NCBI GenBank assembly: GCA_017614375.1
Contig: JAGABZ010000017.1
Span: 1 to 33,030, forward strand
Length of the DNA stretch: 33,030 bases
From: Spirochaetales bacterium
GTDB lineage: Bacteria; Spirochaetota; Spirochaetia; Sphaerochaetales; Sphaerochaetaceae
Direction of reading: 5' to 3'
A model generated the notes under the pieces. It was not told the origin of the DNA and did not search any database. It worked only from the letters and a program-made list of their open reading frames with translations. The translations under genes were made by a program, and so were the position numbers. Shown piece by piece: positions 5,963 to 17,953 of the stretch. How positions within the stretch are numbered: the first letter of the stretch is position 1; every line of letters begins with the position of its first letter.

Positions 5963-6448
5963 ATGGCCAAGAACAAGGGCGTTTTCCAGGGTTTTCTCTG
6001 GGCTGTAGCTGTCTGCATCATTTCATTCGGTGTGATTTACTTCCTCGTCCCGGACGTATCGGAGAAGTTCTTCGGGATGAGCTTCAAGAACGGAGACGTG
6101 TCCGAGGCCGTGTCCCTGTTGAGCAAAACCTTCGACGAGGCGCTTAAGAGCATAAAGGAAACGTTGGACAAGGAGATTCCCGAGCAGGCTGGAGAAGTCA
6201 TCGGGAAACTCAGCAAGTCCGATGTCTGGGACAAGGCGGCCGCCGCCCCTGAAAAGGCGGCCGAGATGATTTCCGAGGAAGCCCAGAGGATTGCCGAAGA
6301 AGCCGGCTATGTCGGAAAGAACATCACCGACGAGGTCGGCGCTGCCCTTAAGAGCATCGACCTGTCGGGACTGATGAAGAGCATTTCTTCCGTTGCCTCG
6401 GGTACCCGGAAGAGCATCAGAAACAAGATTTCCTCGGCATTCAAATGA
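5963..6448 (+). CDS. Membrane-anchored helical protein of unknown function
   Basis: The start at 5963 is chosen because GGAGG sits 7 bases upstream; the frame is open further upstream but across the promoter. The 161-residue product has one N-terminal membrane segment (GFLWAVAVCIISFGVIYFLV, about residues 9-28) followed by a charged, alanine-rich helical region containing repeated amphipathic stretches (EALKSIKETLDKEI, AAEMISEEAQRIAEEAG, LKSIDLSGLMKSI). The C-terminus is basic (RKSIRNKISSAFK). The likely topology is a single inner-membrane anchor with a helical domain outside or inside the cytoplasm. Its stop overlaps the polA ATG (ATGA), so it is translationally coupled to DNA polymerase I. 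I do not recognise the family. Confidence 0.75.
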   Translation: MAKNKGVFQGFLWAVAVCIISFGVIYFLVPDVSEKFFGMSFKNGDVSEAVSLLSKTFDEALKSIKETLDKEIPEQAGEVIGKLSKSDVWDKAAAAPEKAAEMISEEAQRIAEEAGYVGKNITDEVGAALKSIDLSGLMKSISSVASGTRKSIRNKISSAFK

Positions 6449-9210
6449 GCAGGCTTTTCATCGTCGACGGCTACGGGATAATCTACCGCTCGTATTTCGC
6501 GTTCATCTCCCGCCCGCTGACCGACGGGAAGGGCAACAACGTCTCAGCGGTTTTCGGGTTTTTCAAGACCCTGATGATGATAGTCCGGGACTACAGACCG
6601 GACTACCTTGTCGTGGCGCTGGACGCCCCGGCGAGGACGTTCAGGCATGACCTTTTCCCTGAGTACAAGGCCAACCGCGAGGCGGCGCCGGAGGATCTGC
6701 ACGCCCAGGTCCCGGTGATTACCGGCATCCTTGAGCACGCCGGCATACCGTACCGGATGCAGCCGGGGATGGAGGCCGACGACATCATCGCCACATTCTG
6801 CTCACAGGCCAGGCTGAAGGGTATCGACAGCGTGATCGTCACCGGGGACAAGGACCTGATGCAGCTGGTGTGTCCCGGTGTCCAGGTCCTCAGACCCCCG
6901 AGAAAGGGCGAGGACAGCTACGTCCTCTGCTCCGAGGAGCAGGTGCCGGATCTGTACGGCGTGCGTCCCGACCAGATTGTGGATTACCTGACAATCCTCG
7001 GCGACAGTTCGGACAACGTTCCCGGAATCAAGGGCCTCGGGGCCAAGGGCGCTGAGAAGCTTCTCTCCGCCTACGGCACTCTGGACAACGTCTATGAACA
7101 TCTGGACGAACTGACACCTTCTGTGAGAGCCAAGCTTGAGGAGGGCCGCTCCGGCATCGGACTGTCCCGGACGCTGATCCGGCTGAAGAACGACCTGTTC
7201 ACAATCAACGATTTCGCCGCCGAGCTCTGCCCGACCGACTCGATCAACTGGGCCGGGGCTGCAGAGGATTTCACCGCCATAAACTCCAAATCCCTGGCTG
7301 CCCAGGCTATGGGTCTTTCCGGTCAGACCGGTTCAGAACCGGCAACCCCGGCTGCCCCCGTTACCGCTGCGCCGGCCCCGGCGGCCCCGGGTGCCGATGA
7401 TGAGGATTTTGGCATAACGATGTCCGGAAACCCCGATTACAGGCCGATTCTTTCCATAGATGAACTTGACAGGATATTGAAGCAAGTCGTCTCCGGCGGG
7501 CTGGTTGCCCTGGATACCGAGACCACCGACCTCGACCCGACGGTGGCCTCGCTGGTGGGAATCTCGTTCTGCTCCGAGACGGGCAGGGCGTACTATGTCC
7601 CCCTGGTCTGCGCAGGAAAGCGCCTGCTGGAAGAGGCTCCTGTTCTGGACTGCTTCAGGCGGCACCTGAATGGCGTGGGCATCATCGGGCAGAATATCAA
7701 GTACGACCTCCAGATCCTCTCCCGCGCCGGGCTTGAGCTGGAAGACCCGGTTTTCGACACGATGATTGCCGCCTGGCTGCTCGATTCGGACAGCGGTGTG
7801 TACAACATGGATGCCCTGGCCGAGAGACTGCTTTCGTACAAAACGGTCCGCTTTGAGGACGTGGTGCCCAAGGGCGGATGCTTTTCCGATGTCGCACTGA
7901 CAGAGGCCGTGCGCTATGCCGCCGAGGACAGCGACGTGACATGGACGCTGTACCGGCTGCTTTCAAAAAAGCTTGAGAGAGCCGGACTGGACGGGGTGCT
8001 CAGGGAAATCGAGATGCCCCTGGTCAGGATCCTGGCCCGGATGGAACTCAACGGAATCCTCCTGGACAGGGAGAGAATAGCCTCGCTTTCCGGAGTCCTG
8101 GAAGCCCAGCGGGAGGCAGTGGCCTCACAGGTGTTCGAACTCTGCGGAAAAGAGTTCAACCTCAACTCGCCCAAACAGCTGAGCGAAGTGCTGTTCGTGG
8201 ATAGGAACCTCAAGCCCGGCAAGAAGACCCGGACCGGTTTCTCCACCGATTCGGATGTTCTTGAGGGCCTGGCGGCGACCTCGGGCGACCCGGTCCCGGG
8301 GTTGATTCTGCGCAGCCGCTTTCTGTCCAAACTCAACAGCTACTGCAGTTCGCTGCCCGACCTGATCAGCCCGGCCGACGGCAGAATTCATCCGGATTTC
8401 CTTCAGACCGGCACCGGCACGGGCAGGCTGTCCTGCAGGAACCCGAATCTGCAGAACATCCCGGTCAGAACCGACGAGGGCAGGCTGATCCGCGGGGCTT
8501 TCCCCGCCGCTGAGGGCTGCACTCTGATGTCGGTGGACTACAGCCAGATTGAGCTGGTGGTGCTGGCCCACCTCAGCGGTGACCCGGCGCTGACCGAGGC
8601 CTTCAGATCCGGGGACGATGTCCACCGGGCCACGGCGGCCAGGATTTTCGGCGGATTTCCCGAGTTCATCACCCCGGAGCAGCGGCGGATTGCCAAGACG
8701 ATAAACTTCGGCGTCATATACGGCATGTCCCCCTTCAGACTCTCAAACGAACTGGGAATCGGCTGGAAGCAGGCCCAGGGTTTCATCGACTCGTACTTCA
8801 GCCAGTACGGCGGTGTCAGGGCCTTCGTCGATTCAGTCCGTGACCAGGCCGCTCAGACTCTGTCCGTAAAGACGATGTTCGGCCATATCCGCAGAGTTCC
8901 CCAGATCGGCTCGGCAAACAAGGTCGAGCGCGCCGGCGGTGAGCGCATAGCCGTCAACACCGTAGTCCAGGGAACCGCGGCCGAGATAATGAAAAAGGCG
9001 ATGGTCGCCGTGGATAAGGCCCTCAGGGAAAGCTCTCTGGATGCCAGGCTTCTGTTGCAGATCCACGATGAGCTTATCTTCGAGGTGCCCGTCGGGCAAA
9101 AGGAAGCGACCGAATCCCTGGTGCGAAGGGTGATGGAAAACGTCGTGACCCTCTCGGTGCCGCTTAGGTGCAGCATCGAATTCGGGGACGACTGGGGGCA
9201 GATGCATTGA
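6445..9210 (+). CDS. polA: DNA polymerase I with active 5' nuclease and proofreading domains
   Basis: A 921-residue family A polymerase for Okazaki-fragment processing and repair. The N-terminal ~290 residues are the 5'-3' exonuclease (DGYGIIYRSYFAF near the start, GLEADD-like GMEADDII, VTGDKDLMQLV, LGDSSDNVPGIKGLG). A Pro/Ala linker follows (about 295-315). The 3'-5' exonuclease keeps its acidic residues: D357 and E359 in LDTETTD, the Asp of NIKYDLQ, and YAAEDSD. Polymerase motif A is DYSQIE (D698), motif B has K751 and F755, and motif C is HDE (D875, E876). All three activities should therefore be functional. The ATG overlaps the previous stop, and its TGA overlaps the TTG of coaE. Confidence 0.97.
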   Translation: MSRLFIVDGYGIIYRSYFAFISRPLTDGKGNNVSAVFGFFKTLMMIVRDYRPDYLVVALDAPARTFRHDLFPEYKANREAAPEDLHAQVPVITGILEHAGIPYRMQPGMEADDIIATFCSQARLKGIDSVIVTGDKDLMQLVCPGVQVLRPPRKGEDSYVLCSEEQVPDLYGVRPDQIVDYLTILGDSSDNVPGIKGLGAKGAEKLLSAYGTLDNVYEHLDELTPSVRAKLEEGRSGIGLSRTLIRLKNDLFTINDFAAELCPTDSINWAGAAEDFTAINSKSLAAQAMGLSGQTGSEPATPAAPVTAAPAPAAPGADDEDFGITMSGNPDYRPILSIDELDRILKQVVSGGLVALDTETTDLDPTVASLVGISFCSETGRAYYVPLVCAGKRLLEEAPVLDCFRRHLNGVGIIGQNIKYDLQILSRAGLELEDPVFDTMIAAWLLDSDSGVYNMDALAERLLSYKTVRFEDVVPKGGCFSDVALTEAVRYAAEDSDVTWTLYRLLSKKLERAGLDGVLREIEMPLVRILARMELNGILLDRERIASLSGVLEAQREAVASQVFELCGKEFNLNSPKQLSEVLFVDRNLKPGKKTRTGFSTDSDVLEGLAATSGDPVPGLILRSRFLSKLNSYCSSLPDLISPADGRIHPDFLQTGTGTGRLSCRNPNLQNIPVRTDEGRLIRGAFPAAEGCTLMSVDYSQIELVVLAHLSGDPALTEAFRSGDDVHRATAARIFGGFPEFITPEQRRIAKTINFGVIYGMSPFRLSNELGIGWKQAQGFIDSYFSQYGGVRAFVDSVRDQAAQTLSVKTMFGHIRRVPQIGSANKVERAGGERIAVNTVVQGTAAEIMKKAMVAVDKALRESSLDARLLLQIHDELIFEVPVGQKEATESLVRRVMENVVTLSVPLRCSIEFGDDWGQMH

Positions 9211-9794
9211 AACGGATTCTGGTCGGAATCACCGGCAAAAGCTGCAGCGGCAAAAACTACGTAGCCTCGATCCTGCAGGAGCGCGGCTGGGTTGTCGTCG
9301 ACGCAGACGAAGTTGCCCACCGTGTCCTTAACACCCTCTCGGACCGTGTTTCAGAGCTTTTCGGGCCTCAGGTCATCAAAGCCGACGGGACAGTCGACCG
9401 CAAGGCCCTCGGGCAGATAGTCTTCTCCGACCCTGACAGGCTCCGGGAACTCGAGGGCCTGATTCATCCGGCCGTGAAGCAGCACATCCTGCAGTTGCGC
9501 AAGCTCTCAGATGCCCCGGTGGTGGCTATAAACGGAGCGGTGCTGCACCGGAGCGGAATCGACAGGCTGTGCAGCGCGGTAATTTTCGTCCGCTCACCTT
9601 ACAGGCTGCGCGTCAAACGGGCCCGTCAGAGGGACGGGGTGACGGAGAGTCGGTTCAGACTCCGGACCCGCAACCAGGGGGACGTCAACCCCCGGACCGG
9701 ACTGAAGGGAGTCAGGGTTTACGTCCTGGACAACAGAGGCAACAGTTCCAAAATACATCGACAAATAGACAGGATATGTGATAGTATCTGTTGA
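9207..9794 (+). CDS. coaE: Dephospho-CoA kinase
   Basis: It phosphorylates the 3'-OH of dephospho-CoA, the last step of coenzyme A synthesis. The 195-residue protein has the P-loop GKSCSGKN (10-17) after RILVGIT, the acidic substrate motif VDADEVAHRV (31-40), the family motif GLIHPAVKQ, and INGAVLHRSGIDRL in place of the E. coli LLVEN segment. The start is TTG at 9207, overlapping the polA stop as TTGA; this gives the correct N-terminus right before the P-loop strand, whereas the upstream in-frame ATG at 9168 adds 13 unrelated residues. Length is normal. It is the last gene of the orf5963-polA-coaE unit. Confidence 0.92.
   Translation: MKRILVGITGKSCSGKNYVASILQERGWVVVDADEVAHRVLNTLSDRVSELFGPQVIKADGTVDRKALGQIVFSDPDRLRELEGLIHPAVKQHILQLRKLSDAPVVAINGAVLHRSGIDRLCSAVIFVRSPYRLRVKRARQRDGVTESRFRLRTRNQGDVNPRTGLKGVRVYVLDNRGNSSKIHRQIDRICDSIC
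9758..9787 (+). promoter_or_regulatory. Internal promoter in the 3' end of coaE
   Basis: TCGACA (9758-9763), an 18-base spacer and TAGTAT (9782-9787) with TGA before the -10 as an extended element. It lies inside the last codons of coaE and would drive the gene at 9808 and the nuclease genes after it. Confidence 0.42.
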
Positions 9795-9807
9795 TACGAG
9801 GTGTGTC

Positions 9808-11001
9808 ATGAAGGGACGGACTGTACTGCTTATCATCATGGTTGTGGTTCTTGTGTATGTGCTCGGACTCGTCATAGCCACGCGTCCGGAGAGCACGGGC
9901 CGGGACGCCGCTTCCCTCAGCCTTGAAAACCTCTCCTCAACCCAGCCTGTCGTTATCGCCGGAATGAGCGAGGAGGAAATCTCACAGCTTGTCGACCGCC
10001 GCGTCAGCGAACAGCTTGCCGCCCAGAAGGACGCCATCCTCGCCCAGGCCAGGGTAGACGCCTCGGCCGTTGTAAACCAGGCGATTGCCTCCATTCCACA
10101 GACCGACACCGCCGCCGAGCATGACAAGCTCAGAAGCGGCATCCTCAGCGAAACCGAAAAGCTCATCGCCCAGTCCGCCGAGCAGACAACAGAGCAGTCC
10201 GAGACATCGATCGCCACGGCAAAGAACGAGGTCATAATCCAGACCAACCGGAGCATCGAGAACGCAAAGACCGAGGTCAACCGCCAGACGGAAAAGGTAG
10301 TCCAGCAGGCCAACAGCCAGACTCTGACCGCGGTCCGCTCGGAAATCGAGGCGGCCGTAGCGCAGGCAAAGGCTGAAATCCTGGAGCAGATCGCTCCGTA
10401 CGAGCTGACCGCCGAGGACCTCGAGCCGTTCATTCCCGGCATCGTCGAGGCCGTCTACCCGCAGGTCCTGGCCAGGGTAATCGATACCTTTTCCGATTCC
10501 GGCGAGCTTCAGAAGGCAATCGTCGAGTGGATGAGGGAGAACGGGGACGAGGTCGTCGCCAACCTGATCGTCGCCGTCGTTTCCTCGGAACAGCTGGATA
10601 CCAAGGTCAACGGCAACATCGCCGCCGCTACCCCGGCTATCGAGCAGCAGATTGAGACCGACCTCTCGGAAAAGCTTGAGCCCGCCGTCGAGTACTACGT
10701 GGACGCCTATCTGGACGAACTGGACCTTCAGGCACAGTTTGCCGCCGCGCAGCCGGCAGCCGAGGTCGTTCAGCAGCCCGAGCCCGAACCGGCAGCCGAG
10801 CCTCAGCCTGTAGCCGAGGTCGTACAGCAGCCTGAGCCCGCAGCCGAGCCTGCGGCAAAGGATGAGGCCGAGTTCCCGGCCGAGGAAGGCCTCGAGCCCG
10901 GAAACGGCATCATCGAGATGACCGACGAGGAATACGCCGCCGCGATGGCGGAGGCAAAGCGGTCGGCAACGGCTGATTACACCCAGAAAATCAACAAGTA
11001 A
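9808..11001 (+). CDS. Membrane-anchored coiled-coil protein with Pro/Glu/Ala repeat tail
   Basis: Start at 9808 chosen because GAGG lies 6-7 bases upstream and the N-terminus then has a short basic stretch (MKGR) before one membrane segment (TVLLIIMVVVLVYVLGLVIA, about 5-24). Residues ~55-205 form a long Gln/Glu/Ala/Ser-rich helical region with coiled-coil character (EEISQLVDRRVSEQLAAQKD, NRSIENAKTEVNRQTEKVVQ). A folded-looking segment follows (PYELTAEDLEPFIPGIVEAVYPQVLARVID). Then comes a low-complexity tail with repeats of AAEVVQQPEPEPAAEP type (about 315-350) and a conserved-looking end (NGIIEMTDEEYAAAMAEAKR). Function unknown. Its TAA touches the ATG of the nuclease gene with zero spacing, so the two are probably made together. 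Confidence 0.8.
   Translation: MKGRTVLLIIMVVVLVYVLGLVIATRPESTGRDAASLSLENLSSTQPVVIAGMSEEEISQLVDRRVSEQLAAQKDAILAQARVDASAVVNQAIASIPQTDTAAEHDKLRSGILSETEKLIAQSAEQTTEQSETSIATAKNEVIIQTNRSIENAKTEVNRQTEKVVQQANSQTLTAVRSEIEAAVAQAKAEILEQIAPYELTAEDLEPFIPGIVEAVYPQVLARVIDTFSDSGELQKAIVEWMRENGDEVVANLIVAVVSSEQLDTKVNGNIAAATPAIEQQIETDLSEKLEPAVEYYVDAYLDELDLQAQFAAAQPAAEVVQQPEPEPAAEPQPVAEVVQQPEPAAEPAAKDEAEFPAEEGLEPGNGIIEMTDEEYAAAMAEAKRSATADYTQKINK
10758..10851 (+). repeat. Direct repeat encoding the Pro/Glu/Ala tail
   Basis: A 28-base unit at 10758-10785 recurs at 10812-10839 with two mismatches, a 54-base period. It encodes two AEVVQQPEP units. Further AEP-coding fragments follow. The unit is prone to slippage or recombination, so its length may vary between strains. 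Confidence 0.7.
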
Positions 11002-12183
11002 ATGAAGATTGCCCTCTGTGCTGATTTACACATAGGCAGGATTGTGTCCGACCCGGGGTGGAAAGCCGTCGTCGATTATGTCTGCGACAACGGCTGCGAT
11101 GTCCTGCTGATCGCCGGGGATGCCGTGGACAGTGAAGAGCTCTGGTATCAGGCCTACGGGCCTTTCACCGACGGACTGAGGCGTCTGAAGAACAGCGGGG
11201 TTAGGGTGATTGCCGTGGCGGGAAACCACGACAGCAAAATCTTCACCCGTCTGGCCGAACAGGATCCGGGTTATCTGACGATGCTCGGAACAAACGGCAG
11301 ATGGGAATCAACCGACCTCGATGATACTGTGCGCATACTCGGCTGGTCATTTGCTTCGCGGTACTGCAACGAGAGCCCGTTTGCGAACTGGAATCCCTCT
11401 CTGTGTGAGTTTGACGGGCCGGTAATCGGACTTCTTCACTGCGATGCCCCGTCCCCGGCCGGCAGCCGCTACGCCCCGGTCAGGGCGGACGAGCTGAATT
11501 CATCCCCGGTTTCCTTCTGGGTCATGGGACACATCCACCGTCCCGGTTTCGTCGGGGACAAGGCCCTCTACTGCGGCACTCCGTACCCCCTGGACCGCTC
11601 CGAGACAGGCCCCCGCGGACTGTGGCTGATACAGGCCGACGGGAGCGGAATCTCCGCTCCTGTGCAGGTCCCGCTTGCCGAAACCGAATACGCCCCGCTT
11701 GAAATCAATCTGAGCCTTTGTACCTCGACCCAGGAGGCAAATGAGGCAATCACAAAAGCTGTCAGGGGTCAGGGGCAGGAGTTGCTTGGTCTGCGGGACA
11801 ACCTGAACACAGCGGCTTTCAACATCACGCTTATGGGTGAGATTGCCCCGGCTGTGGACATGGACAGCGTCCTGCGCGACCTGACTTCGCTTGAAATCCA
11901 TCCGGAGGAGGGCCGTTCAATAAAGGTCTGCTCGGTAAGCGACATGACTGAGGTTGCCCTGCCGCTGGAGCAGCTCTCCTTGCGCAAAGACCCTGTCGGG
12001 ATTCTGGCCACGCTGATTCTCAATCCTTCACCGGCGCTGATTGGGCGCGTGTCCAAGGCGGAATCGGAGCTTCTGCGCCAGTTCGCCTTTCCGTCGGACG
12101 GAACTTTCCCCGATCAGGCCTTCAGGCGGGCGGGAATCAGACTGCTTCGGCAGATGCTCTCCCAGGAGGCAGACCGTGGGTAA
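11002..12183 (+). CDS. SbcD/MRE11-type metallophosphoesterase (YhaO-like)
   Basis: A 393-residue nuclease subunit of the calcineurin-like phosphoesterase superfamily. The five metal-binding motifs of MRE11/SbcD are visible: DLH (D8, H10), GD (D40), GNHD (N75, H76, D77), the histidine in LLHCD (H146) and GHIH (H177, H179). A C-terminal ~150-residue region should bind the ATPase partner. It is shorter than the canonical E. coli SbcD C-terminal region and resembles YhaO of Bacillus, which pairs with YhaN. Its ATG directly follows the TAA of the coiled-coil gene and has no Shine-Dalgarno sequence, so translation depends on coupling. Its stop overlaps the start of the ATPase gene. It probably cuts DNA ends or hairpins in a complex with that ATPase. 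Confidence 0.88.
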   Translation: MKIALCADLHIGRIVSDPGWKAVVDYVCDNGCDVLLIAGDAVDSEELWYQAYGPFTDGLRRLKNSGVRVIAVAGNHDSKIFTRLAEQDPGYLTMLGTNGRWESTDLDDTVRILGWSFASRYCNESPFANWNPSLCEFDGPVIGLLHCDAPSPAGSRYAPVRADELNSSPVSFWVMGHIHRPGFVGDKALYCGTPYPLDRSETGPRGLWLIQADGSGISAPVQVPLAETEYAPLEINLSLCTSTQEANEAITKAVRGQGQELLGLRDNLNTAAFNITLMGEIAPAVDMDSVLRDLTSLEIHPEEGRSIKVCSVSDMTEVALPLEQLSLRKDPVGILATLILNPSPALIGRVSKAESELLRQFAFPSDGTFPDQAFRRAGIRLLRQMLSQEADRG

Positions 12184-15100
12184 CAAAGCCGTAATAACAA
12201 AGGCCACGGTCAACCGCGCCCCCGGATTTCCCGGTGATGCTCCGGCCAGGACCTTTCCCCTCATCGACGAGGGATTCTGCGACGGGGTGAACTTCATCTA
12301 CGGCCCCAACGGCAGCGGAAAGACGACCCTGTCCCGGGCACTGCGCGGCAGCCTGTTCGAGGATGAGACGGACAGGACTACCTCGGTCGACTCGGACGTC
12401 AGCCTCGACGGGCATATGTTCAGATTCATCCTCTCCGACGGGCGGCGGAGTTTCAGCTGTACCGACGGTGAGGACATTGCCCCCGGTTTCCCCCAAAAAG
12501 GCGAGGGAGGGTACTACAACCTGGATTTCTCCAGCCTGCTAAGCTATGACGGCTCCGACCTGGCCAAGCGTATCCGCACCGAACTGGCCGGCGGATTTGA
12601 CATCCCCAGGGCAGCGGAATGTGCTGCCTATCAGCAGAGTTTTCCAAGGTCGCTCAGGGCAGATTTGAACTCTCTGGAGGAAAAGAGGAAGGAAATCGCC
12701 GGAGGTCAGCAAAGGCTTGCCCGGCTGGACGCGGAAATCTCCGAGGCGGACCGGACCCTGAAGGAAGTCGACGCGGACGAAAGGCGCCTTAAAAGGCTGA
12801 CTGCGGCCGCAGAATACCGCGATGCCCAACTTAAGCTGAAGGAGCTTCAGGCACGGCTGGAACACTATGATCCGGCGCTCAGGAACTTCAACGGCTCTTC
12901 AAGGGAGCTGCTTGCCCGTTCCCGAAAAGCTCTGGCCGATGTGCAGTGGCGTCTGGAGGAGACGGGCAACAAACTCCGGGAGGTTCAGGCCTCCGAGGCT
13001 GCCCTCGGGGAGATGCCTGAGATTCCGGCGGAAAAAGAAGCCGTTCTGAGCGACTGCCTTGATTCTCTGAAAAGAGAGAGAGAAGAACTCAGACGCAGAG
13101 AGGACAAGCTTGCCGAGGCCCTGGCCGCCAGAGACTGCTGGCTGAGGGAGTTTGATTGGCTTATCGGCCCTCAGGAGCCGCAGAACATCGGTTCCGCCCT
13201 CACGACCCTGTCCGAGTTGGCAAGGGAATCCGAGCCTCTGAGGGCGCGTCTGGCTCTGGCAAAGGAAAGGCTGGCCGCGGAGGGTAAGAGCCCCTCGGTA
13301 AGTCAGGCTTGTGGCCCGGAAAAGAAAAGACCCCCGGTTGTGCTTTGGATTGCAATCGGTGTTTTCTTTGTGCTTCTGGGTTTTCTGGTCAAAGCCCCGG
13401 CTCTGGGAATAGGGGCTTTCGGAGCCCTGGCGGTTGCGGCGTTCCTCAGCTGGAAAAAGCCCGAAGACGTCCAGAGCTCTCCTGCCGAACAGGACCCGGA
13501 TGCGGCCAAAAGGGAGTATGACGAGGCTCTCGGGGCTTTCCGGCAGTGGGTTGAGAATCATAGTGCGGCCGCATCCGAGCTTAGGATCCGTCCCGAAAAC
13601 GACCTGGCCAGTGAGCGTTACTTCTACGATTTCACCCTCAGGCTGGGCGAGTATTTCAATCTTTCCAGGGCGTTGGCCGTTGCTCAGGAAAACTGCGCGC
13701 AAAGCAGGAGTACCGCCTGCGGCCTGATTGAGCGGGCTGTCGGTATCGACGGTTCCTGCCCGGCGGAATTGTCCGACGCGATTGTCCACATCGAGCACCT
13801 TCTGAAAAAACTGGAGGAGGGCAGACGCATTTCCGCCCGTAAAGCCGAGTTGCTCAACTCCCTGACCGCCGACGGGGCAAAGCGGGACGAGGCTCAAAAG
13901 GCCTTGGATGAGTTCTGGGCCGGTCTGGGCTTTGAGGCTGAGGACGAGCGCCGTTTCGAGAAACTCTGCGAGGATTACGAGTCCTACAGAGAACTTTGCA
14001 ATCAAATCATGGTAATCAACGGAAAGCTGACCGGGGATGCGGAAATCCGAGGCCTGTCCGAACAGGAGGACCTTGATGCCCAGATTTCCCGGCTTCAGGA
14101 TACCGTAGGAAACAGACAGTCGGTTTCCGATACCCGGGGCGGAAACATCAGGGAGCGGGAGCTGCTTCTCCAGCGCAACGATATAGGCCAGGTGAATGAG
14201 CAGATCAGAAGCGCAAGGGAAAGTCTGGAAAAAGCCTTTGATCTGATGCTTTCCAATCAAATCGTGGACATACTCAGCACGGAGGTCGGCACCCAGGTGC
14301 AAGAGCAGCAGGCCCCGAAGATCCTCAGGGATGCGCGGGAGCTTATGGGCTCGTTCACCGGCGGGCGCTACGACATCCGGTGGTGCAAAGGCGACACCTT
14401 TGAATCCTACGACTCGGGCACGGGGCGCAGTTACACCCTGGATGAGCTGTCCTCAGGAACCCGGATCCAGCTGATGATTGCCCTCAAGCTGGCCGGCATC
14501 CGCAGCCGCGAGGGCGGCGGCACCGCCTGGCCGGTGTTCTTTGACGAGACCCTGGCCAACAGCGACGATGTCCGAAGCAGGGAAGTTGCCCGGAGCATCG
14601 CCGCATCCGCGAAGGGCAGGCAGGTGTTCTTCTTCTCCTCAAAGCCGGAGGAGGTGCAACTGATTGAGGAAATCTGCGCAGAGGACGGCACACCGTTCAG
14701 GGTAATCGACCTCTCCCGCGGCGGAAGGATTCCGGTGCGCAGACGCTCCTATGAGCCTTCTCGTAAAACCTACAAATGGGACTGCGCCTACGGCGACTGG
14801 ATGAGCCTCAACGGCATCGATTGCGGAAGCCTCTACGACAATATCGAATCACTGTCGGTGTGGTACCTGTTCGACGACATACCCGCCCTGCGCTCCTGTG
14901 TTGAAAAGGGCTTTGAGGACATCTACGGGGCCCTCGAGGCCAGCACTTTAGATAGCGCCGCGATTGCCGAGACTGTCAAAACTCTCTCCGAAGCCCGGGA
15001 GCTGGCGCTGGCCGGACGGCCGAAAACGCTGGACGGACAGACGCTGTTGCAGCTGAGAATAAACTACTCAGGCTATTGGGACAGCGCGGCCGAGATGCTG

Positions 15101-15340
15101 GACGCCGCGCCCGGCTCCACCGGAAACGACCTGATGCGCTGGATCCGCGCCGGTCAGGTGAGCCGCTTCACCAACCAGGCTGTCATTGCCGACCTTGAGG
15201 CCAGGCTCAGTGAAAACGGCTATCTGGATACCAGGGAGCCCAGGCCGGTTGCGCAGATAATCGACCGGATCCGGGCCGGGGGCGTATCCGAAACCGCGCT
15301 GGATCTGGCGCGCAGGTACCTTCAGATGCTGGCAGGCTGA
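12176..15340 (+). CDS. SbcC/YhaN-type ATPase with membrane hairpin and C-terminal extension
   Basis: The start is GTG at 12176, with AGGAGG 7 bases upstream and overlapping the SbcD-type stop; it gives 1054 residues. The N-terminal ATPase half has Walker A GPNGSGKTT (43-51). Long coiled-coil arms follow, interrupted at about residues 387-428 by two adjacent hydrophobic segments (VVLWIAIGVFFVLLGFLV, then ALGIGAFGALAVAAFLSW). The C-terminal ATPase half has the signature LSSGTR (758-763) and Walker B FFDE (D790, E791). No CxxC zinc hook is seen at the coiled-coil apex, where the hydrophobic hairpin sits instead. YhaN of Bacillus is a comparable membrane-segment SbcC-like protein. After the ATPase fold ends near residue 850, about 200 residues of unrecognised helical sequence follow. 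The complex would process DNA at the membrane. Confidence 0.85.
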   Translation: MGNKAVITKATVNRAPGFPGDAPARTFPLIDEGFCDGVNFIYGPNGSGKTTLSRALRGSLFEDETDRTTSVDSDVSLDGHMFRFILSDGRRSFSCTDGEDIAPGFPQKGEGGYYNLDFSSLLSYDGSDLAKRIRTELAGGFDIPRAAECAAYQQSFPRSLRADLNSLEEKRKEIAGGQQRLARLDAEISEADRTLKEVDADERRLKRLTAAAEYRDAQLKLKELQARLEHYDPALRNFNGSSRELLARSRKALADVQWRLEETGNKLREVQASEAALGEMPEIPAEKEAVLSDCLDSLKREREELRRREDKLAEALAARDCWLREFDWLIGPQEPQNIGSALTTLSELARESEPLRARLALAKERLAAEGKSPSVSQACGPEKKRPPVVLWIAIGVFFVLLGFLVKAPALGIGAFGALAVAAFLSWKKPEDVQSSPAEQDPDAAKREYDEALGAFRQWVENHSAAASELRIRPENDLASERYFYDFTLRLGEYFNLSRALAVAQENCAQSRSTACGLIERAVGIDGSCPAELSDAIVHIEHLLKKLEEGRRISARKAELLNSLTADGAKRDEAQKALDEFWAGLGFEAEDERRFEKLCEDYESYRELCNQIMVINGKLTGDAEIRGLSEQEDLDAQISRLQDTVGNRQSVSDTRGGNIRERELLLQRNDIGQVNEQIRSARESLEKAFDLMLSNQIVDILSTEVGTQVQEQQAPKILRDARELMGSFTGGRYDIRWCKGDTFESYDSGTGRSYTLDELSSGTRIQLMIALKLAGIRSREGGGTAWPVFFDETLANSDDVRSREVARSIAASAKGRQVFFFSSKPEEVQLIEEICAEDGTPFRVIDLSRGGRIPVRRRSYEPSRKTYKWDCAYGDWMSLNGIDCGSLYDNIESLSVWYLFDDIPALRSCVEKGFEDIYGALEASTLDSAAIAETVKTLSEARELALAGRPKTLDGQTLLQLRINYSGYWDSAAEMLDAAPGSTGNDLMRWIRAGQVSRFTNQAVIADLEARLSENGYLDTREPRPVAQIIDRIRAGGVSETALDLARRYLQMLAG

Positions 15341-15342
15341 TC

Positions 15343-16317
15343 ATGGACACTTCACTCATCAGGGCGCGGAGCCGGCTTTACCGCAACATCAGGGAATTCT
15401 TCGACAGCCGGGGTTATCTGGAGGTCGAGACCCCCTGCCTGGCTGCCAGCCTGATTCCCGAGCCGACCATCAAAAACTTCTCCACCCTCTACCAAAGCGA
15501 GTACCTCGGCAGCCGTGAGATGTACCTCGTCCCGTCGCCCGAGGTGTTCATCAAGCGCCTCATCGCCCGGGGCTGTGGCAACGTCTATGAGATTTGCAAG
15601 TGCTTCAGAAACGCCGAGCAGATCGGCTCGCTGCACAACCCGGAGTTCTCGATGCTCGAGTACTACACGATGGACTTCGACGAAAAGGACTCGATTGCCC
15701 TGACGCAGGAGCTGCTTCGCGAGACGGCTCTTCCCGGCTGTCCCGATGGTCTGAAACAGCCGTTTGAAGTGATTTCAATGGCCCAGGCGCTGAATAAGGC
15801 CACCGGTCTTGAGCTTGAGGCGATCCAGTCCCCGAAGGTTATCAGGCAAAAGGCCCATGAGCTGGGGGTGCTCGACGACCCGTCGGTTTCCGAAGGCTGG
15901 GACGATACGTTCAACCGGTTATTTCTCAACTTCGTCGAGCCGTCGCTGAGGACGGACGTCCCGGTGGTGCTGACCGGATACCCCGCCCAGATCGAGTGTC
16001 TCGCCCAAAACGACGGGATCGTCAAGCGGCGCTGGGAGCTGTACTTCGGCGCTGTGGAAATCGCCAACTGCTATCTGGAGGAAACCTCGCCCGAGAGGGT
16101 CCGGGAGAGCATGCGCAGGGAGTTTGCCAGAATGGCATCCGAGCGCGCCCTGACCGGCGAGGTCATCCCCGACAACGACCCGGAGTACTGGCGGATTTTC
16201 CGGTCATTCCCCCGTTGCAGCGGGGTTGCCCTGGGCCTTGACCGGCTTCTGATGCTTCAGACGGGGAGACAGAGAATCGACGATTTGATATTGTTCGGCT
16301 TTTCTGATATACTCTGA
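15343..16317 (+). CDS. epmA: EF-P beta-lysine ligase EpmA (PoxA/GenX)
   Basis: A 324-residue class II lysyl-tRNA-synthetase-like enzyme without an anticodon-binding domain, the hallmark of EpmA. It activates (R)-beta-lysine with ATP and attaches it to a lysine of EF-P. Class II motif 2 is visible as YEICKCFRNAE...HNPEFSMLEYY, and motif 3 near the end as GVALGLDRLLML. VETPCL near residue 28 is part of motif 1. The length equals that of E. coli EpmA (325), far below a real LysS (~500). It starts 2 bases after the ATPase gene stop and is directly followed by efp and epmB, which settles its role. Confidence 0.95.
   Translation: MDTSLIRARSRLYRNIREFFDSRGYLEVETPCLAASLIPEPTIKNFSTLYQSEYLGSREMYLVPSPEVFIKRLIARGCGNVYEICKCFRNAEQIGSLHNPEFSMLEYYTMDFDEKDSIALTQELLRETALPGCPDGLKQPFEVISMAQALNKATGLELEAIQSPKVIRQKAHELGVLDDPSVSEGWDDTFNRLFLNFVEPSLRTDVPVVLTGYPAQIECLAQNDGIVKRRWELYFGAVEIANCYLEETSPERVRESMRREFARMASERALTGEVIPDNDPEYWRIFRSFPRCSGVALGLDRLLMLQTGRQRIDDLILFGFSDIL
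16285..16313 (+). promoter_or_regulatory. Promoter of efp inside the 3' end of epmA
   Basis: TTGATA (16285-16290), a 17-base spacer and TATACT (16308-16313): the closest consensus match in the window. It overlaps the last codons of epmA and would start mRNA about 30 bases before the efp ATG, giving efp stronger expression than its modifying enzyme. Confidence 0.78.
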
Positions 16318-16348
16318 CAGTTCGTATTTTCTGCATTCGAGGTGTTTT

Positions 16349-16912
16349 ATGATAAAAGCAGGACAGATTGACAAAGGTACGGCGCTGCTGATCAAGGGGC
16401 AGCCGTTCATCTGCATCGACCGTGAATTCGTGAATCCGGGCAAAGGCTCGGCATTCGTCAGACTGAAGCTCAAGAGCCCGACCACCGGTCAGGTGCTCGC
16501 CGAGACGATGAAGAGCCAGGACAACGCCGAGGACATCACCGTCACCGACGAGGACTTCCAGTATCAGTACAACGACGGGGAGTACTTCCACTTCATGAAT
16601 ACCGAGACGTTCGAGGACGTGCCGGTTCCGATGAGCTCCTTCCCCGACTACCAGTTCATCATGAAAGAGGGCGAAACCTTCCGCTGCACCGTCTACAACG
16701 AGGAAATCCTCGACATCCAGGTTCCGAGCAAGGTCGTCTATCTCGTCGCCGAGGCCGAGGAGGCCATCAAGGGCGACACGGTCACCGGAGCGACGAAGTT
16801 CGTCACCACCGAAACCGGTCTGAGAGTGCGGGTCCCCATCTTCATCAAGCAGGGTGAAAAGATCCGCGTCAACACAGAGACAAAGGAATATCTCGAGAGA
16901 GTCAACAACTGA
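16349..16912 (+). CDS. efp: Translation elongation factor P
   Basis: A 187-residue EF-P that relieves ribosome stalling at polyproline stretches. The N-terminal KOW-like domain carries the modification loop VNPGKGSAF with K32 at the tip, equivalent to K34 of E. coli in VKPGKGQAF; this fits the beta-lysylated subfamily. The two OB-type domains follow, ending in the conserved GLRVRVPIFIKQGEKIRVNTETKEYLER. The length is standard. GAGG lies 6 bases before the ATG, and a near-consensus promoter lies just upstream. It sits between the ligase EpmA and the aminomutase EpmB. Confidence 0.97.
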   Translation: MIKAGQIDKGTALLIKGQPFICIDREFVNPGKGSAFVRLKLKSPTTGQVLAETMKSQDNAEDITVTDEDFQYQYNDGEYFHFMNTETFEDVPVPMSSFPDYQFIMKEGETFRCTVYNEEILDIQVPSKVVYLVAEAEEAIKGDTVTGATKFVTTETGLRVRVPIFIKQGEKIRVNTETKEYLERVNN

Positions 16913-16915
16913 CCG

Positions 16916-17953
16916 ATGCCGGGAATCCACAGTCCTGAGGCACTGCGGGAGCACTTCCGCCTCACCCCGTCCGAAAAGGCCTGGCGTGAGGACGCTTCCG
17001 GGGTGCCTCTCGGTATAACTGAGCACTACCTATCACTTATCGACGGGCAAGACCCGACCGATCCCCTGCGCCGGCAGGTGGTCCCCACAGCCGGGGAGAA
17101 CATCACCCTGCCTTATGAGGAGTCCGACCCCCAGGCCGAGGAGGGGCACAGCGTCACGCCCCGCCTGGTCCACCGCTACACGAACCGGGCGGCCTTTCTG
17201 GTGACCGACATCTGCCCGATGTACTGCCGCCACTGTTTCCGCAGGCGCTTTACTGGCAACCTGGCAGGCCCGGCTTGTTCGGACGAGATAGCCCGGGCGG
17301 CCGATTACGTCGGCTCCCATCCCGAGATCCGCGAGGTCCTGTTCACCGGCGGCGACCCGCTGACACTGGACAACAGCGCCCTGAAATCCGTGTTCGAAGC
17401 CTTCCGCTCCCGCCGGGCGGATTTGATCATCCGGCTGTGCACCCGCTATCCTGTAAGCGACCCGGACAGAATCGACGATGCCCTGTGCGCCATGGTCGCC
17501 TCTTTTTCCACCGCCCCGGTTTTCGTCCTGACCCAGTTCAACCATCCGCGCGAGCTCTGTCTCCAAAGCCGCCGGGCCCTGGACAGGCTTCACCGCTTCG
17601 GACTGCAGGTTTTCAACCAGACCGTCCTGTTGCGGGGTGTGAACGACGACAGCGCGGTGCTGGCCGAGCTGTTTGAAAACCTGCTGGGCTGCTACGTCAA
17701 ACCGTACTACCTGTTCCAGTGCGACCTGGTCGCCGGGACGGGGACTTTCAGGGTTCCCCTTTGCAGGGGAATGGAGATCTATCGGGAGCTTTCGACCAAA
17801 GTTTCCGGGCTGGCGCTGCCTGTATACGCCATCGATCTGCCCGGCGGCCGGGGAAAGGTCAACCTCGGCACCGCGGTAATCAGCCCCGCCGGTGAGGGCT
17901 TTGTGGACATCCTCACACCGGAGGGTGCCCGCGTCAGATACCCGGACAAGTGA
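16916..17953 (+). CDS. epmB: EF-P (lysine) 2,3-aminomutase EpmB, radical SAM
   Basis: A 345-residue radical SAM, PLP-dependent enzyme that converts lysine to (R)-beta-lysine for EpmA. The cluster motif CPMYCRHC gives C100, C104 and C107. FTGGDPL (about 143-149) is the SAM-binding segment, and K314 in LPGGRGKVNL is the PLP lysine. Length matches E. coli EpmB (342) and is clearly shorter than the free lysine 2,3-aminomutase KamA (~420). It begins 3 bases after the efp stop. With EpmA and EF-P it completes the beta-lysylation route; the hydroxylase EpmC is not in the window. Confidence 0.95.
   Translation: MPGIHSPEALREHFRLTPSEKAWREDASGVPLGITEHYLSLIDGQDPTDPLRRQVVPTAGENITLPYEESDPQAEEGHSVTPRLVHRYTNRAAFLVTDICPMYCRHCFRRRFTGNLAGPACSDEIARAADYVGSHPEIREVLFTGGDPLTLDNSALKSVFEAFRSRRADLIIRLCTRYPVSDPDRIDDALCAMVASFSTAPVFVLTQFNHPRELCLQSRRALDRLHRFGLQVFNQTVLLRGVNDDSAVLAELFENLLGCYVKPYYLFQCDLVAGTGTFRVPLCRGMEIYRELSTKVSGLALPVYAIDLPGGRGKVNLGTAVISPAGEGFVDILTPEGARVRYPDK

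Follow-up and report, generated by a model that had tools for sequence, protein, structure and literature searches.

The window analysed here, a stretch of 33,030 nucleotides covering positions 1 to 33,030 of contig 17 (JAGABZ010000017.1) in a 1.54 Mb, 98% complete genome of a Spirochaetales bacterium of the family Sphaerochaetaceae, carries three consecutive plus-strand genes that encode an N-terminally anchored coiled-coil protein (hereafter the 9808 protein), a Mre11-family nuclease of the YhaO/SbcF type and a Rad50/SbcC-like ATPase of the YhaN/SbcE type. All three have homologues in both sister species of the genus, and the positions and close couplings of the genes had been given correctly in an earlier sequence-only reading of the window, which proposed in addition that the 9808 protein is a structural partner holding the nuclease at the cell envelope. 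The present analysis concerns the nature of the nuclease pair and the relation of the 9808 gene to it.

The nuclease and its ATPase partner

The nuclease matches PF00149 (46 bits against a cut-off of 21.5, E=1.1e-11) and possesses the Mre11 motif residues D8, H10, D40, N75-H76-D77, H146, H177 and H179, all of which are invariant in eight family relatives, and a profile made from a nuclease alignment (A1) matches SbcD/Mre11 chains in the PDB. The score with the SbcD model TIGR00619 is 34 bits, below the cut-off of 77.65. Among the three genomes of the genus (G000, that of the window, and the sisters G001 and G002), the nucleases of the sisters are 38-40% identical to the window nuclease. An initial profile scan of the genome contigs returned no nuclease relatives, and the same scan rerun with alignment A1 gave 80 loci. 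SbcD above its curated cut-off is present in 40 of the 139 family genomes and in none of the three genus genomes; the YhaO/YhaN pair is thus probably the sole Mre11-Rad50-type machine of the genus.

The ATPase gene begins with its GTG codon inside the nuclease gene (stop codon at 12181-12183), as had been noted before, and lies behind an AGGAGG sequence. The encoded protein has the Walker A motif, an LSSGT signature and a Walker B motif, and L758, S759 and T762 of the signature are invariant in an alignment (A2) of 30 YhaN proteins that were hand-picked from the loci and represent many phyla. A model calculated with these 30 sequences (mean pLDDT 78.7) consists of an ABC head and two coiled-coil arms, and a Foldseek search with this model ranked Smc5/6 and Mre11-Rad50(-Nbs1) (7zr1) first and had the SbcCD head (7yzp) among its further matches. 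With PF13514 (AAA_27), which we take to be a mark of YhaN, the window ATPase scores 14 bits against a cut-off of 22, while its relatives at loci L131 (25.6 bits) and L128 (50.3 bits) pass. The earlier naming of a YhaO/YhaN-type pair, including a membrane segment in the ATPase, is borne out.

The C-terminal domain of the ATPase (residues 862-1054) is all-helical when modelled alone (mean pLDDT 95.1) and is present in 24 of the 30 aligned proteins, exclusively in the long forms of roughly 1,050-1,190 residues. Foldseek found no match for it in the PDB at E<=0.001; the best Z score was 4.5 (liprin SAM domains and an archaeal virus protein) and the best E value from hmmsearch was 0.0013, so that no solved relative is assignable. 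The long forms have an invariant GR, mostly as a GRGR-like sequence, within this domain.

The coiled-coil apex

The two hydrophobic segments of the window ATPase (residues 387-405 and 407-425) correspond in the model to helices 389-405 and 408-426, of 17 and 19 residues, respectively, at the apex of the coiled coil, and the protein contains no CxxC motif. A survey of YhaN proteins at 56 loci of the nuclease scan (L076-L131) gave 47 readable ATPase frames and nine loci without a frame. The most hydrophobic 19-residue stretch falls at residues 371-465, with a mean hydropathy of at least 1.6, in 43 of the 47 frames; in L113 the mean is 1.5 at residue 402, and in L091 the hairpin is present in a separate reading of the locus, the survey frame having been shortened by the motif search. 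A mid-protein CxxC occurs in two of these frames (L076 and L107). In every protein of alignment A2, the top two 19-residue stretches by hydropathy are mid-protein neighbors; both have a mean hydropathy of about 1.6-3.0 in most of the 30 proteins (the lowest second stretch has 1.02), and a short turn separates them. The control set, derived from 24 loci with true SbcD hits (L132-L155), comprises 20 SbcC frames with a Walker A motif, all of which have a CxxC at residues 500-587 and none of which has a hydrophobic segment. The occurrence of the hairpin in all aligned YhaN proteins and in no SbcC control identifies it as a trait of the family and not a peculiarity of the window.

Judged by its sequence, YhaN looks like a Rad50 with a membrane anchor in place of the zinc hook, the hairpin being the predicted anchor. 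Several points weigh against this assignment: two of the 47 wide YhaN frames (L094 and L127) have no hydrophobic segment in either reading, the hairpin is a prediction from hydropathy and the model, and the pTM of that model is low (0.39), which makes the coarse geometry of the arms weak. The same segments might also form a buried dimerisation element at the apex of an otherwise ordinary, soluble SbcCD variant, since the apexes of SbcC and Rad50 are dimerisation sites and the modelled helices are short. However, adjacent stretches of the observed hydropathy, joined by a short turn, are typical of a membrane hairpin, and a soluble variant is accordingly regarded as unlikely.

In the proposed mechanism, YhaO would be a metal-dependent Mre11-type nuclease seated on the cytoplasmic ATPase heads of dimeric YhaN, and ATP would close these heads on a DNA end and gate cleavage, as in SbcCD and Mre11-Rad50. 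A two-helix membrane hairpin would replace the zinc hook, so that the far end of the arms would be anchored in the inner membrane with the heads reaching into the cytoplasm. On balance, we somewhat favor the broader proposal that proteins of the YhaN/SbcE type make up a large class of Rad50-like ATPases that crosses phylum boundaries and carries a membrane hairpin instead of the zinc hook. Their Mre11-type nuclease would act on DNA ends from an inner-membrane anchor, and the longer forms would have an additional, unassigned helical domain at the head. Among the papers listed by literature searches, none mentions such a hairpin for YhaN/SbcE in its title or abstract, which is not proof of absence.

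The gene upstream of the nuclease

The 9808 protein has a hydrophobic segment at residues 6-24, and the earlier claim that membrane segments are present in both this protein and the ATPase therefore stands. Behind this single N-terminal anchor lies a C-terminal part of 370 residues, in which a middle of coiled coil and low complexity precedes a short, conserved tail; a core at approximately residues 204-271 is conserved across the genus. Searches of Pfam and NCBIfam with the protein gave nothing above cut-off, and a sequence search of the relatives returned matches in the genus only, so that wider relatives were located by gene position. A profile comparison between the 9808 proteins of the genus and those of the rest of the family aligns only the first 35 residues (E=1e-6).

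A full-length nuclease (E<1e-100) is encoded in 31 of the 139 family genomes, and the upstream neighbor of the nuclease gene was readable in 29 of the 30 loci obtained from these. A 9808-type gene is this neighbor in three of the 29, which are the three genomes of the window's genus; in locus L182, a small protein with a signal-like start, of another kind than the 9808 protein, is encoded 151 bases upstream of the nuclease. The absence of the gene from beside the pair in relatives outside the genus is a finding of the kind that the sequence-only reading had itself named as speaking against a structural partner. The gene is found instead with coaE: of 20 additional family genomes retrieved, 17 have an N-anchored gene after coaE (the misses are G009, G035 and G036, the last of which has its contig end at this point), and in all five pair-bearing genomes checked (G004, G005, G007, G016 and G024) the 9808-type gene follows polA-coaE and the pair is located elsewhere, at a distance of about 0.9 Mb in G004 and G024, whose assemblies are single contigs. 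Genomes that have no pair likewise carry the gene behind coaE. The coaE-linked proteins of the family, to which Sphaerochaeta belongs (S. halotolerans locus L122 and family genome G127 have 60-mers in common), have a basic start, a membrane segment that often ends in (Y/T)xRP and a very variable middle, either coiled coil or proline-rich, and many carry a tail resembling EEYxxxRxxIRxxAIxxxLxxL.

In other families of the class, an N-anchored gene occupies the position after coaE in 19 of 20 genomes (L185-L204; the miss is G044), and SPOR, a peptidoglycan-binding domain, scores above the Pfam cut-off in 16 of the 18 of these that were scanned (L194, cut by the contig, was left out). The SPOR model PF05036 finds nothing in the 9808 protein or in genome G000, and the genome-wide count is 1 of 37 family genomes with a SPOR domain versus 22 of 24 others. 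The number of transpeptidases per genome is 0-1 in the family (21 of 37 have one) and 1-5 in the others; one published study credits Sphaerochaeta coccoides with a single transpeptidase (PMC4423922). When scored with a SPOR-anchor profile, the anchors of the family separate as a group from 134 control N-anchored frames (p ~1e-8); one control, with a score of 67.5, probably represents a SPOR protein missed by the filter.

From its position, its anchor and the family series, we infer that the 9808 gene is the family's SPOR-less occupant of this slot, the SPOR domain of which would have been lost in the Sphaerochaeta family, a family poor in transpeptidases. Because the same slot holds a membrane-anchored SPOR protein in other families, the bulk of the 9808 protein (its C-terminal part) probably lies in the periplasm, separated from the nuclease by the membrane. 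The gene would then stand beside the pair by gene order only and most likely belongs to the cell envelope. Two observations count against this placement. The 9808 anchor itself scores 3.7 bits with the SPOR-anchor profile, within the range of the controls, so that its tie to the slot rests on position and the family series; and the linkage to the pair is kept in all three genus genomes despite the divergence of their nucleases, with the genes abutting in the window, which makes a coupling within the genus possible.

The adjacency, the TAA-ATG abutment and the conserved core of the 9808 protein are also the features that would support a three-part membrane complex, in which the 9808 protein binds YhaO/YhaN and holds the pair at the envelope, at least in this genus. 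However, the adjacency is unspecific, because all three genomes of the genus share the whole block from polA to mnmE, including the 9808 gene and the pair, and outside the genus the 9808-type gene goes with coaE and not with the pair. The single anchor, the long C-terminal part and the SPOR slot together suggest that the bulk of the protein lies on the other side of the membrane, and YhaN, with a hydrophobic hairpin of its own, would not need a tether. The junction between the two genes in the sister species also speaks against the complex. In each sister, some tens of bases lie between the stop codon of the 9808-type gene and the start of the nuclease gene, the nuclease gene has its own purine-rich, ribosome-site-like sequence (GGGAGG, GTAGGGGG), and the gap contains a terminator-like hairpin, of 8 pairs and -16 kcal/mol in G001 (3 of 200 shuffles as good) and of -20.1 kcal/mol in G002 (1 of 200 shuffles as good). 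A terminator scan lists the G001 hairpin (7 found versus 5.4 expected by chance) and, in G002, only a weaker stem at the gene end (6 found versus 5.7 expected). The contact of the nuclease ATG with the preceding TAA (10999-11001) and the lack of a Shine-Dalgarno sequence, both confirmed for the window as first reported, are thus confined to this genome, unlike both sisters, which suggests re-initiation or a local loss of spacer and hairpin; no terminator-like hairpin was seen at the window junction.

A complex of all three proteins is, on this evidence, highly improbable, and the tempting three-part assembly is set aside for want of support. We are confident, in contrast, that 11002-15340 encodes an SbcF/SbcE (YhaO/YhaN) pair with a predicted membrane hairpin at its apex, and that the 9808 protein is not a subunit of this pair and belongs to the polA-coaE block as the SPOR-less version of its anchored protein. 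Of the sequence-only interpretation, the nuclease pair and the membrane segment of its ATPase are retained, and the 9808 protein as third part is not.

The gene order in the window is polA, coaE, the 9808 gene, nuclease, ATPase, epmA, efp, kamA and mnmE (Table 1), where efp and mnmE are presumed labels based on the sequence. The epmA-efp-kamA genes (window 15343-17953) run in the plus direction in the genus; many of the other family loci that were read have them in inverted orientation behind the coaE-linked gene. This switch of orientation places a rearrangement border at the site of the nuclease pair.

Table 1. Coordinates of genes and sequence features in the window.
Feature	Position	Strand	Basis or remark
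polA	6445..9210	+	Pfam; block to which the 9808 gene belongs
coaE open frame	9168..9794	+	Pfam/NCBIfam; true start probably near 9207; 9808-type gene comes next across the family
N-terminally anchored coiled-coil/low-complexity protein, 397 aa (ATG 9808)	9808..11001	+	Slot-mate of coaE-linked SPOR proteins; probably outside the nuclease system
Codons of N-terminal membrane anchor, residues 6-24 of 9808 protein	9823..9879	+	KD mean 3.36
YhaO/SbcF-type Mre11-family nuclease, 393 aa	11002..12183	+	PF00149, Mre11 motifs, PDB profile matches
YhaN/SbcE-type Rad50/SbcC-like ATPase, 1054 aa	12176..15340	+	Motifs, model, Foldseek; start GTG 12176
Walker A GPNGSGKT, ATPase residues 43-50	12302..12325	+	Motif
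Predicted membrane hairpin, ATPase residues 387-425, coiled-coil apex (place of the zinc hook in SbcC/Rad50)	13334..13450	+	Hydropathy and model
All-helical C-terminal domain, ATPase residues 862-1054	14759..15337	+	Alignment, model; long YhaN forms only
epmA-like EF-P ligase, first of the downstream epmA-efp-kamA block	15343..16317	+	NCBIfam

Relation to known systems

The window pair belongs to a known kind, the YhaO/YhaN type. In Bacillus subtilis, SbcE and SbcF (YhaN and YhaO) are likewise an adjacent Rad50-like ATPase and Mre11-type nuclease. Published work implicates SbcEF in repairing double-strand breaks, in a role that is poorly characterised (PMC6452273). SbcE has been called SMC-like and assigned to this repair process (PMC4205851), it is also named as an interactor of SsbA (PMC7031210), and yhaN is listed under lexA/SOS (PMC3896406). 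The Clostridium relative at locus L131 (936 residues) has the same mid-protein hairpin as the window ATPase, which differs from such shorter YhaN forms (approximately 940 residues) in its additional helical C-terminal domain of about 190 residues.

Like the coaE-linked SPOR proteins of other families, the 9808 protein is encoded in the slot behind polA-coaE and follows the plan of an N-terminal anchor; where those proteins carry the SPOR domain, it has a middle of coiled coil and low complexity and a short, conserved tail. With SbcC/SbcD (Rad50/Mre11), the window pair has the nuclease motifs, the ABC head and the coiled-coil architecture in common; it differs in the hydrophobic hairpin that stands in place of the CxxC zinc hook and in a TIGR00619 score below the cut-off. 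In a widespread Mre11-Rad50-like family, an apex hairpin seems to hold DNA-end processing at the membrane, where the textbook members use a zinc hook.

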